Positions 50,153 through 52,801 of a stretch of 64,000 nt of DNA are shown here, in pieces (the first letter of the stretch is position 1; each line of letters begins with the position of its first letter). The position numbers and the translations under genes were made by a program. The notes below the pieces were generated by a model. That model saw nothing but the letters and a program-made list of their open reading frames with translations, was not told where the DNA came from and made no database searches. This DNA is from Brevibacillus brevis NBRC 100599 (lineage in GTDB: Bacteria; Bacillota; Bacilli; Brevibacillales; Brevibacillaceae). Location: NCBI RefSeq assembly GCF_000010165.1, contig NC_012491.1, positions 3,479,501-3,543,500 of the forward strand, given 5' to 3'.

Positions 50153-51043
50153 TTATGCGTGGGAAGTAAGCGGAAAACGAAAATGTTCTGTCTCCATTTT
50201 TAACGAGGGGCGAACAAATAAGACATCATCGGTTGTTGTCATCCATGCAGATTGGATCTTTTCATTCTCACTATCCGGCATAAAGTGAAAATGAATGATC
50301 GTTGTCTCAGCGGTTATCAAATGAGAAATGACCATTTCTATATCAACTGGTTTTTTACTTACAACATCAAATACATGCAGTTGTCCATCTTCTCGTTCAA
50401 ATAAGACAATCACATCCGCCTCTTCGAGATAATAGATCGCATCCCGAAAAACAAGCAAAAAGTAAAACATCAACAGATGCTCGCTATCTTTGATGCCTAG
50501 TCTCGTTGAAACGGGGATTCTTTTCGCAGCAAATTCCTTCATAATATCAAAATCAGCCTCATTATCAACATCCAGCTTACGCAAGACCGATTTTTGTTCC
50601 ACGTGCTTTTTCAAATCGGTTGCCAATAAACGAAAACTACTTTCAGGTACTCTCTCAAATCCAAACTTCGGATAAAAATCGAGCACGGTATCATTGGCAT
50701 ACAAATAGATAAAATCGTATTCCTTCTCGCATATTTCAAGAATATGGTTCATCAATTTCGCTGCCAGCCCCTGGTTGCGATAGGCAGGATGCGTCATGAC
50801 CGTTCCGATCTGAAGTGCCTTGTAGTCTTTTCCATTGGATGTCACGATCATCTTACTGGCAGAAGCGTTCGCAATAACCTGATCCCCATCCAAATAGGAA
50901 TAGCAGACATAGTTGTCATTCCAAAAGCCCTTGTTATCCCATTCTCTAAAATCGAGCTGAAAGATCTGCTTGGCGAGGTCATTAAAGCTTTCCTTGTATG
51001 TTTCGATATGCTTGTAGTCACTAATCAATCGATATTCACGCAT
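50153..51043 (-). CDS. GNAT family N-acetyltransferase with an extra C-terminal domain
   Basis: 296 aa from ATG 51043 behind GGGAGG. The GNAT motif is IGTVMTHPAYRNQGLAAKLM (about 83-102), followed by 'FYPKFGFERVPESS' and a ~140-residue C-terminal domain not recognised in detail. The frame is open 165 nt further upstream with no site, across a terminator hairpin in the leader (51124-51155). Possibly an antibiotic or small-molecule acetyltransferase; inference. Confidence 0.8.
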   Translation of the reverse strand: MREYRLISDYKHIETYKESFNDLAKQIFQLDFREWDNKGFWNDNYVCYSYLDGDQVIANASASKMIVTSNGKDYKALQIGTVMTHPAYRNQGLAAKLMNHILEICEKEYDFIYLYANDTVLDFYPKFGFERVPESSFRLLATDLKKHVEQKSVLRKLDVDNEADFDIMKEFAAKRIPVSTRLGIKDSEHLLMFYFLLVFRDAIYYLEEADVIVLFEREDGQLHVFDVVSKKPVDIEMVISHLITAETTIIHFHFMPDSENEKIQSAWMTTTDDVLFVRPSLKMETEHFRFPLTSHA

Positions 51044-51119
51044 ATAAAAACCTCCCGTTCTATTTTTTGTGCGGTTTGTCATCATCCATTCCTTTTTCGC
51101 AATCCCTTCTTTCCAAATA

Positions 51120-51155
51120 AAAAAGACCACAAGAAGAATTCTCTTCTCATGGTCA
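51120..51155 (-). promoter_or_regulatory. Terminator-like hairpin in the GNAT leader
   Basis: Minus strand: GACCATGAGAAGA pairs with TCTTCTTGTGGTC around GAAT, then six T. It lies 75-110 nt before the GNAT start codon, in the position of a transcription attenuator. No known riboswitch pattern was recognised in the leader. Confidence 0.55.
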
Positions 51156-51271
51156 AATTTATCGTTGTGATGAAGATACCTATCCCGAACTGAATAGATA
51201 TCATGCACAAACGTGAAATTTGTTTGAATGAGATATAATGCCTTCTAATCGCTTTTGAAAAAAGGAATAAA

Positions 51272-51290
51272 AAAGAAACCAAGGGCACGC
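51272..51290 (-). terminator. Short hairpin and T run further upstream in the GNAT leader
   Basis: AAGGG-CGTG-CCCTT on the minus strand, followed by GGTTTCTTTTTT. It could be a second attenuator or the terminator of an upstream transcript. Confidence 0.4.
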
Positions 51291-51477
51291 CCTTCATTTA
51301 ACCTTTTCCCATATAAAATTCATTCGAATTTTACTTAGCGATTATCAGTTTCATCATACTCAATCAAAACCTCTTTTCACATTCGATACCATTACTATAT
51401 TTGACTTTCAAAAGGTTGTAAATGAACATTCAAAATCCACTCACATTTTTGTAAGTATCGTTATACAAAAAAGCCAT

Positions 51478-51489
51478 TTTCTTATATAA
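51478..51489 (+). promoter_or_regulatory. Promoter-like -10 of the HTH leader
   Basis: TATAAT ends at about 51489 with a weak TTATAC -35 about 18 nt upstream. It would start a leader RNA of about 245 nt before the HTH gene. Confidence 0.4.
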
Positions 51490-51497
51490 TTCAAATA

Positions 51498-51518
51498 CCC
51501 CCTTTTTAAAAAAGGGGG
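51498..51518 (+). repeat. C5T5A6G5 palindrome in the leader
   Basis: An almost perfect palindrome of runs: five C, five T, six A, five G. As RNA it forms a stem at the start of the leader; its C-run could alternatively pair with the AGGGGGG ribosome-binding site of the leader ORF. Confidence 0.6.
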
Positions 51519-51556
51519 ACACCGTTTTCAAAATGGACCTCGAGGGGGGTGTACCA

Positions 51557-51652
51557 ATGGCGAATGCTCTCAATTTGCCACATACCGCAGCGGCTCATGC
51601 AAAGCCTAGAAATAGTGAGGCGATACTTTGCATGAGGTGGTCTTCCGTTTAA
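51557..51652 (+). CDS. 31-aa leader peptide
   Basis: ATG 51557 lies 6-7 nt behind CGAGGGGGG, a strong site. The peptide begins MANALNLPHTAAAHAKPRN and ends with CMRWSSV; it has no signal or membrane segment. A 10-bp perfect stem (TCATGCAAAG 51595-51604 with CTTTGCATGA 51626-51635) lies inside the ORF, so translation must melt it. Its purpose is more likely regulatory than catalytic. Confidence 0.5.
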   Translation: MANALNLPHTAAAHAKPRNSEAILCMRWSSV

Positions 51653-51704
51653 ACGAATCATCGCCTTCATTTGCGTATCTCATTTCCTATTTCTTGGCTT
51701 TGCC

Positions 51705-51730
51705 CCTTATTTGCCTATCTATAAATAAGG
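51705..51730 (+). promoter_or_regulatory. Hairpin covering the ribosome-binding site of the HTH gene
   Basis: CCTTATTT (51705-51712) and AAATAAGG (51723-51730) form a perfect 8-bp stem with a 10-nt loop; the AAGGAG of the next gene starts inside the stem (51727-51732). This is the layout of a translational attenuator. Confidence 0.55.
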
Positions 51731-51741
51731 AGCGAGCAGAA

Positions 51742-52005
51742 ATGAAATGTGTGAAAGCAAATTTAATCCTTCCTGAATCGTTACTCGCGGAAATTCAAAA
51801 GTACGTGCAAGGAGAAACCATTTATATTCCGAAGACAAAAGTAACCCATCAAAAATGGGGGACGCGCACTGGCGGAAGAAAACTCCTGGATGAGCGGAAT
51901 ACAGCTATTAAAAGCAGTTTTCGGGCCGGGACGGCTATTTCTCAGTTAGCGGAGGAATACTTTTTGTCTACAGAGACGATTAAAAAAATCGTGTATACCA
52001 AATAG
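51742..52005 (+). CDS. CD3324-like helix-turn-helix protein
   Basis: 87 aa from ATG 51742. 'MKCVKANLILPESLLAEIQKYVQGETIYIPK' with 'RNTAIKSSFRAGTAISQLAEEYFLSTETIKKIV' is the CD3324 family pattern, related to the Mor activator HTH. A DNA-binding regulator is inferred. The preceding 240-nt structured leader suggests that its translation is controlled. Confidence 0.8.
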   Translation: MKCVKANLILPESLLAEIQKYVQGETIYIPKTKVTHQKWGTRTGGRKLLDERNTAIKSSFRAGTAISQLAEEYFLSTETIKKIVYTK

Positions 52006-52162
52006 ACGTTTATAAAGCACTGAAGACCTTTTCATTAGGTTGTCAGTGCTTTTTTATGGCGAGTTTTTTTTGGAAATGTCCTTTCCCTTTCTCCTCACCT
52101 GCAAACACGCTAAAGTTAAAGAAGAACCCACCTTACAAGACAGAAACAGGAGGAACCGCAAC

Positions 52163-52801
52163 ATGGAACCTTTTATCCATACGCATCAATATCACTTCAT
52201 TAAATCACGCGTTCAAGCAATCATGAACGCCTATGCGACCAGTACAGATGTCAACGTGATTCGTGCTCGAAAAGAAATCGCTCATGAAGAAGTCTTTCAA
52301 TTGTTCCCAAACATGACGGAAGAACAAAAAGAGATTTTGCATCCGATTGACTCGATAAAAGAAAAGGCAGAAGGAAAGCAGTTTTTGAATCAGCTTTCAC
52401 CGTTTGTAATTCCATTCCCTGCTATCACAGAGTCTTCCATTAAGAAGCTCTTTCCAAAAGTAAAGAAGCTAAAGGTATCGAATTTAGCTGAGATCGATTT
52501 TTCAGAAATCTCTTATCTGAGCTGGCTAGACACTGCGACGGAAAAGAAATTTATTGTTGCTTACCACGAAGGAAAACTGATTGGCATACACGGACAGTTT
52601 ACAAATGTAAACAAAAAAGGCGTTTGTGCGCTCTGTAATCGCTTTGAGGAGATCGGCATGTTCATCCTTGAAGCCAAAGGTTCCGGGGATGGAACGTATT
52701 TGAAAAAAGGAAACTACATTTGCCAAGACAGCGTGTCATGCAATCAAAATATCATTTCGCTGGATAAGCTGAACGATTTTATTGCGCTAATGGTGAAATA
52801 A
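52163..52801 (+). CDS. FusB/FBP-type elongation factor G-binding protein
   Basis: 212 aa from ATG 52163 behind CAGGAGG; the frame is open from 52040. Two-domain layout: N-terminal helical domain and C-terminal zinc finger with C155, C158, C187 and C193 (CALC...CQDSVSC), the hallmark of FusB/FusC/FBP. These bind EF-G and free it from ribosomes stalled by fusidic acid; chromosomal homologues occur in many Bacilli. Confidence 0.85.
   Translation: MEPFIHTHQYHFIKSRVQAIMNAYATSTDVNVIRARKEIAHEEVFQLFPNMTEEQKEILHPIDSIKEKAEGKQFLNQLSPFVIPFPAITESSIKKLFPKVKKLKVSNLAEIDFSEISYLSWLDTATEKKFIVAYHEGKLIGIHGQFTNVNKKGVCALCNRFEEIGMFILEAKGSGDGTYLKKGNYICQDSVSCNQNIISLDKLNDFIALMVK

Follow-up and report, generated by a model that had tools for sequence, protein, structure and literature searches.

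The window, a 64,000-nucleotide stretch of the 6.3 Mb genome of Brevibacillus brevis NBRC 100599, carries a small helix-turn-helix (HTH) gene of the CD3324 family, a structured leader upstream of it and a gene for a FusB-type EF-G-binding protein downstream. As a whole, the leader (51490-51760) has a predicted folding energy of -90.7 kcal/mol (z -4.8), with none of 200 shuffled sequences equally stable. It includes a short open reading frame (sORF) and several pairing strands, the last of which enclose the Shine-Dalgarno (SD) site of the HTH gene. The features of the region are as follows.

51462-51490, + strand: promoter-like hexamers TATACA-17-TATAAT, 10 of 12 matches
51498-51518, + strand: C5T5A6G5 hairpin, predicted 5' end of the transcript (-13.2 kcal/mol, z -2.4)
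51542-51551, + strand: ribosome-binding site of the sORF, GAGGGGGGTG, 5 nt before the ATG
51557-51652, + strand: 31-codon leader ORF, MANALNLPHTAAAHAKPRNSEAILCMRWSSV, with an sORF in 66 of 66 aligned leaders
51594-51606, + strand: switch strand 1, CTCATGCAAAGCC, forming stem A with strand 2 or, alternatively, stem B with strand 4
51619-51624, + strand: GGCGAT, 5' strand of helix C, pairing with 51660-51665
51626-51636, + strand: switch strand 2, CTTTGCATGAG, forming stem A with 51594-51604
51660-51665, + strand: ATCGCC, 3' strand of helix C, with covariation in the 66-leader alignment
51696-51703, + strand: switch strand 4, GGCTTTGC, forming stem B with 51599-51606
51705-51730, + strand: SD hairpin, CCTTATTT/AAATAAGG, with the main site AAGGAG (51727-51732)
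51742-52005, + strand: small HTH gene of the CD3324 family, 87 aa (NF040785, E 2.3e-32)
52014-52058, + strand: terminator-like repeat with inverted arms at 52014-52029/52037-52052 and trailing T, between the HTH and FusB-type genes
52056-52080, + strand: ATGGCGAGTTTTTTTTGGAAATGTC box, a candidate operator, conserved between CD3324 and FusB-type genes
52163-52801, + strand: gene for a FusB-type EF-G-binding protein (PF07299, E 2.8e-30, and PF16571)

An earlier note on this DNA had pointed out several of the leader elements, and each of them was found where the note places it, give or take one base pair. The promoter-like -10 belongs to a full pair of hexamers, the palindrome forms the hairpin at 51498-51518, the 31-aa ORF does have a very strong site upstream, and the 8-bp stem around the AAGGAG of the HTH gene (51705-51712/51723-51730) is as described, containing the AAGG of that site and directly preceded by strand 4. 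The perfect stem within the ORF is real, although it spans 11 bp rather than 10 (51594-51604/51626-51636). Inverted-repeat analysis also revealed a second pair of arms that had been overlooked (51599-51615/51687-51703; 17 nt, 94% complementary). Because stem A and this arm pair use the same 5' strand, they are mutually exclusive. By eye, relatives too have a TATAAT-like -10 ahead of their sORF. The hairpin at the 5' end is kept, with varying letters, only in the nearest relatives of the window (L001-L010) and was absent by eye in L011-L021.

Conservation and covariation of two competing stems

The earlier note would have given up its reading had the ORF and stems lacked conservation in relatives; both are kept far beyond the genus, with covariation. 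Our conservation search was seeded with the HTH protein rather than the RNA and yielded 51 related loci. Within the genus, leader DNA was matched in 20 of 26 genomes and the protein likewise in 20 of 26. Three loci (L053-L055) are near-copies of the window, and all 37 of the CD3324 loci L056-L092, in which protein identity is 58-72%, carry the leader blocks upstream; their hosts include Bacillus, Priestia, Cytobacillus, Neobacillus, Paenibacillus and Brevibacillus, among others. Among distant MAG loci (L093-L101 and L103), the sole model match was L093, from a Clostridiales MAG (E 3.5e-9). Stem A is fully (100%) paired across the 46 closer leaders but, like stem B, hardly varies among them, so that covariation is not obtainable there and the test has to come from diverged leaders.

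We therefore used an alignment (A2) of 66 hand-picked diverged leaders from Bacilli, drawn from 62 non-redundant leaders, 40 extra loci and diverged CD3324 leaders. Near-duplicates were dropped, as were the paralogous leaders L128-L130, the incomplete L195 and L203, a false positive. Stem A is complete in 58 of the 66 leaders, stem B in 62 and both in 54. In stem A, 98.8% of cells are paired and 35 double-change cells fall in four pairs; with kinship ignored, neither this pairing nor this number of double-change cells was reached by any of 500 shuffles, and the number of double-change pairs was matched by 5 of 500. Stem B has 98.7% of its cells paired and two pairs that show double changes; for helix C the values are 93.9% and four. 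The SD hairpin is 81.5% paired in A2, with five double-change pairs, and 94.0% paired in alignment A1. Taken as one structure, stem B, helix C and the SD hairpin hold 40 double-change cells, a count as high in 0 of 500 shuffles (kinship again ignored).

The core shared by stems A and B, GCAAAG, is altered in seven rows of A2, always from A to G, a substitution that allows both partners to be kept through G-U pairing. Six of these rows keep every core pair to both partners; the seventh (L112) loses one stem A pair, at an unchanged position. Brevibacillus also has a paralogous leader of unrelated letters in which, by eye, the same two alternative pairings are formed, and where the variants GAGC, GGGC and AAGC of strand 1 are matched by changes in both strands 2 and 4. 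This leader belongs to a second CD3324 paralog of the genus (L128, L129, L130, L022 and L026-L031). One RNA strand is here held under two competing pairing constraints across a wide phylogenetic range. By comparison of sequences, the leader is a real, conserved and structurally well-supported feature, and two of its properties are those of an attenuator: conserved helices that exclude each other, since A and B share strand 1, and a main SD held in a helix.

Translation of the leader ORF and a modelled ribosome

A third such property is a short leader ORF with a strong SD of its own. In all 66 leaders of A2 a script found a start codon, an SD-like site and a frame that stays open into strand 1. 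An SD score of 14 or more was reached by 61 of the 66 leaders and by 7% of 1320 shuffles; with the threshold set at 18, the figures are 43 of 66 and 0.8%. Across strand 1, about 40 leaders encode xHAKP, 19 encode x-C/R-K/R-A-stop or something similar, and about 7 an SMQS-like form, a split that is approximate because the start codons were chosen by script and those of L011 and L102 look mis-assigned (in L011 a better start is visible in the common frame). Reading in three frames means that at strand 1 it is the RNA, not the peptide, that is conserved. Conservation of the peptide alone is ruled out by these three frames and by the Cytobacillus-type leaders, which shift frame after HAKP. Among the 19 x-C/R-K/R-A-stop leaders, 16 have their stop codon immediately after strand 1, and common-type sORFs keep an L-P-x-T/S motif upstream of strand 1. 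The synonymous share of single-base codon differences, 0.379 in the sORF frame versus 0.273 and 0.085, lends modest support to translation of the sORF.

These properties of the ORF bear on whether the leader might be a ligand-binding riboswitch in which the SD hairpin is the expression platform and the sORF incidental. Two covarying alternative folds joined to an SD hairpin would suit such an element, and a pseudoknot of helix C with stem A is possible. Against it stand the sORF, which is present in 66 of 66 leaders and enters the switch strand in three frames, the low conservation of the unpaired segments, which is not what an aptamer pocket would show, and the lack of a match at the gathering score in the 14 loci compared with Rfam 15; we consider this reading very unlikely.

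We modelled a ribosome on the sORF as a 29-nt footprint kept unpaired during equilibrium folding and computed the cost of opening the main SD. Opening became easier, by about 2 kcal/mol, only with the P-site about 10-13 nt upstream of the switch strand. For the common type of leader (n = 38) with the P-site at -10 to strand 1, the mean change was -1.81 kcal/mol, with 66% below -1; for the SMQS-like type (n = 7) it was -2.19 kcal/mol with the P-site at -12. Ribosome position had no clear effect on SD opening in the FusB type (n = 17). A ribosome sitting on strand 1 raised the cost by +1 to +3.5 kcal/mol. In the window the SD costs 7.5 kcal/mol to open in the free leader and 6.0 at best; with the ribosome on strand 1 it costs 13.3, so the earlier proposal that a ribosome on the inner stem simply opens the masking hairpin was not borne out in that form.

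Folding the leader with and without a ribosome, as the earlier note had suggested, hence yields a gain of about 2 kcal/mol at the best stall site but no clean opening of the SD. The SD hairpin keeps a mean probability of 0.71-0.78 in every state of the commonest type, and because it is mostly formed throughout, equilibrium folding does not prove a switch. A simple SD release of the ermC type is only partly supported by the model, the hairpin staying largely formed, and the ermC-type pairing of strand 2 with the SD hairpin is weak (76.7% paired). A P-site at -10 places the T/S of L-P-x-T/S in the P-site, a coincidence that is independent of the model and favours arrest there.

The same calculations could be taken to mean that translation of the sORF as such, through mRNA stability or as a gauge of general translational load, is what matters, with no specific stall. 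Since ribosomes modelled on strand 1 close the SD of the window, ordinary traffic alone would repress, and the modest conservation of the peptide fits this account as well. It is set against the conservation of L-P-x-T/S exactly where the model predicts SD release, and against a target that is an EF-G rescue family for which the fusB precedent is a stall. We judge this account improbable.

Genes behind the leader and its distribution

The HTH protein scores well above the NF040785 cut-off (110.9 versus 65 bits), which places it in the CD3324 family, and its named near relatives come from Brevibacillus species. It has a weak Pfam match to Mor. Its structure model (mean pLDDT 87.5) shows a C-terminal helix pair of HTH type, and the best fold matches in the PDB are mostly HTH DNA-binding proteins, none of them below E 0.1. 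We found no publication on the CD3324 family in the open-licence literature. The other gene, which the earlier note had named as a FusB-type EF-G-binding neighbour, is exactly that, and it proved central, as in relatives the leader directly precedes FusB-type genes.

A covariance model of the leader (R1; cut-off E <= 0.01) was scanned against 398 genomes of the class and matched 113 sites in 96 of them. In a phylum-wide sample, R1 occurred in 10 of 398 genomes, every one in the same class. A FusB-type (PF07299) gene lies immediately downstream of 41 of the 113 sites. At least 50 sites lie directly before a CD3324 gene, and 31 of those 50 have a FusB-type gene within 1.5 kb. Eight further sites have CD3324 next and a FusB-type gene 430-750 nt down, and three have a FusB-type gene 402-580 nt down with another gene between. 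CD3324 also lies downstream of the site in genome G009, and five more sites are followed by a CD3324-like product (by eye). Other sites comprise one CD3324 fragment, two that stayed unresolved, one before a beta-lactamase-like gene (L194) and an apparent false positive (L203).

Several of these loci are unusual in themselves. In L194 (G020:C9:251419-251553), the N-terminus encoded by the beta-lactamase-like gene, TNPFSRKRQN, resembles the start of a FusB-type protein, as if the original gene had been replaced. L221 (G379:C1:2733070-2733870) appears to be a natural deletion: its leader has no sORF or strands 1 and 2, keeps the 3' strand of helix C, strand 4 and the SD hairpin, and precedes a FusB-type gene whose open frame is only 112 aa. 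In genome G245, leader and CD3324 gene form a tandem duplication (C4:174763-174903 and 175528-175668).

The leader and the FusB-type family tend to occur together: PF07299 is present in 89 of the 96 RNA-bearing genomes versus 158 of 398 overall, kinship being ignored in this comparison. Because seven of the 96 have no PF07299 match, the CD3324 regulon must be wider than the FusB-type gene. The search for CD3324 covered 299 genomes of the class and returned at least 97 genes; among the matches listed, 47 of 97 have no such RNA nearby. Among the FusB-type matches listed, the RNA lies within 1.5 kb of 82 of 150 and is absent for 68. Both genes therefore occur without the RNA, and their association with it is no universal rule. 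Five of 30 CD3324 loci examined by eye (L118, L119, L122, L124 and L126) showed no A/B leader. In all five an sORF overlaps the start of the HTH gene, and in L118, L119, L124 and L126 CAGGTG/CACCTG-like repeats surround both ribosome-binding sites (both by eye).

Assignment to an Rfam 15 family was discarded, as 14 loci gave no match at the gathering score; positions 51001-52400 of the window, searched at E <= 5, likewise gave no Rfam 15 match above gathering. No report of this leader RNA was found in the open-licence literature, and it is apparently a widespread, undescribed RNA family.

So close a tie of the leader to the FusB-type and CD3324 families could reflect autoregulation, with one of the two proteins binding the leader and repressing translation and the sORF being secondary. 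The FusB-type protein has a treble-clef zinc finger, and nucleic-acid binding by FusB and control of its own synthesis are raised as possibilities in a passage of an earlier paper (PMC3352095). However, with seven of 96 RNA-bearing genomes devoid of a PF07299 match and 41 leaders standing before FusB-type genes with no intervening CD3324, neither of the proteins can account for every case by itself, and an sORF with a strong SD is universal. Autoregulation is in our view unlikely.

Of the 40 CD3324 loci L053-L092, 25 have a FusB-type motif within 1.2 kb downstream. Most of these CD3324-FusB intervals contain, by eye, a terminator-like GCACTGA...TCAGTGC-TTTT repeat, behind which an ATGSCRAGTTT-NTTTCC-like box precedes the next gene. 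With up to 3 mismatches allowed, the genome of the window has a single copy of this box, the one described here. The terminator that follows the HTH gene speaks against the FusB-type gene simply being transcribed together with it. CD3324 may bind the conserved box.

Proposed mechanism and relation to known attenuators

Taken together, we think it probable that the leader is a leader-peptide translational attenuator that senses arrest of the ribosome or EF-G and governs a CD3324/FusB-type regulon. A ribosome-sensing mechanism is likely: production of the proteins that release jammed ribosomes is probably controlled by a ribosome translating the very small ORF upstream. Of the attenuator that the earlier note had pictured, the conserved ORF and stems and the link to FusB stand, but the simple opening of the hairpin does not. 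In the attenuator as we picture it, smooth translation of the sORF would keep the main site closed. Arrest early in the sORF, with the P-site on the T/S of L-P-x-T/S, would change the pairing and raise translation of the main gene; in most FusB-type leaders, arrest at the stop codon that ends strand 1 would have the same outcome. The natural signal would probably be ribosome or EF-G arrest of the kind that FusB-type proteins relieve; this is the inducer, and the above the direction of switching, that we infer. In species with CD3324, the HTH protein may in turn switch on the FusB-type gene, acting at the conserved box that lies beyond the terminator.

A fuller version of this scheme, which we offer tentatively and regard as doubtful in its entirety, is that a Bacillales-wide RNA reads EF-G-arrested ribosomes in the middle of the sORF where the leader is of CD3324 type and at the stop codon, upon failed recycling, where it is of FusB type, and that the circuit runs from attenuator to CD3324 activator to a FusB-type rescue gene controlled from the box. 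The regulation of FusB homologs is called unknown in part of a 2025 review (PMC12493156), and a passage of a 2025 structural paper (PMC12008383) suggests that the homologs on chromosomes may have housekeeping roles and confer resistance only incidentally. A conserved attenuator before many FusB homologs predicts inducible control; if this is true, the chromosomal homologs would constitute an inducible response to ribosome jams rather than housekeeping genes with chance resistance. CD3324, a common HTH family, would gain its first physiological context.

Among described elements, uORFC-6-1 is a uORF motif upstream of hflX in Bacillales (PMC8632094). Going by that part of its description, it resembles our leader in joining a uORF to a covarying RNA ahead of a ribosome-rescue gene, again in Bacillales, and is set apart from it by preceding hflX.

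Other Bacilli families have sORF leaders of their own, unrelated in sequence, before FusB-type genes (L224:395-545, L225, L226, L231, L228, L230 and L229). Strands 1 and 3 are alike in L230 and the staphylococcus-like loci, which lets strand 2 pair with either of them. An sORF and the 2:3 pairing are found in the staphylococcus-like L224, L225, L226 and L231, most of which also have 1:2 and 3:4; in pUB101, 2:3 is the only clear pairing.

In ermC and cat-86, an antibiotic-stalled ribosome on the leader peptide opens a stem that masks the next site. Our leader has in common with them a leader ORF, mutually exclusive hairpins and a hidden SD, whereas sequences and downstream genes are unrelated and our model gives no clean release of the SD strand. 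For proteins that free jammed ribosomes, we know of such control so far in only one staphylococcal antibiotic-resistance gene. That gene, fusB of pUB101, is described in parts of three papers (PMC12493156, PMC12008383 and PMC3352095) as controlled by translational attenuation via fusidic-acid-stalled ribosomes. As far as those descriptions go, its attenuator and our leader share an sORF with a strong SD, and in each the SD of a gene for an EF-G-binding protein lies among alternative pairings. A FusB-type gene is the one directly behind our leader at the 41 R1 sites noted above, and lies one gene further down in the window. The pairings differ, being 1:2, 2:3 and 3:4 in fusB, whereas here strand 1 switches between strands 2 and 4, and R1 matched neither the staphylococcus-like L224-L226 and L231 nor L227 or pUB101 itself (L232). 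The leader would work like the fusB and ermC attenuators, and no homology to the fusB leader is detectable in its sequence.
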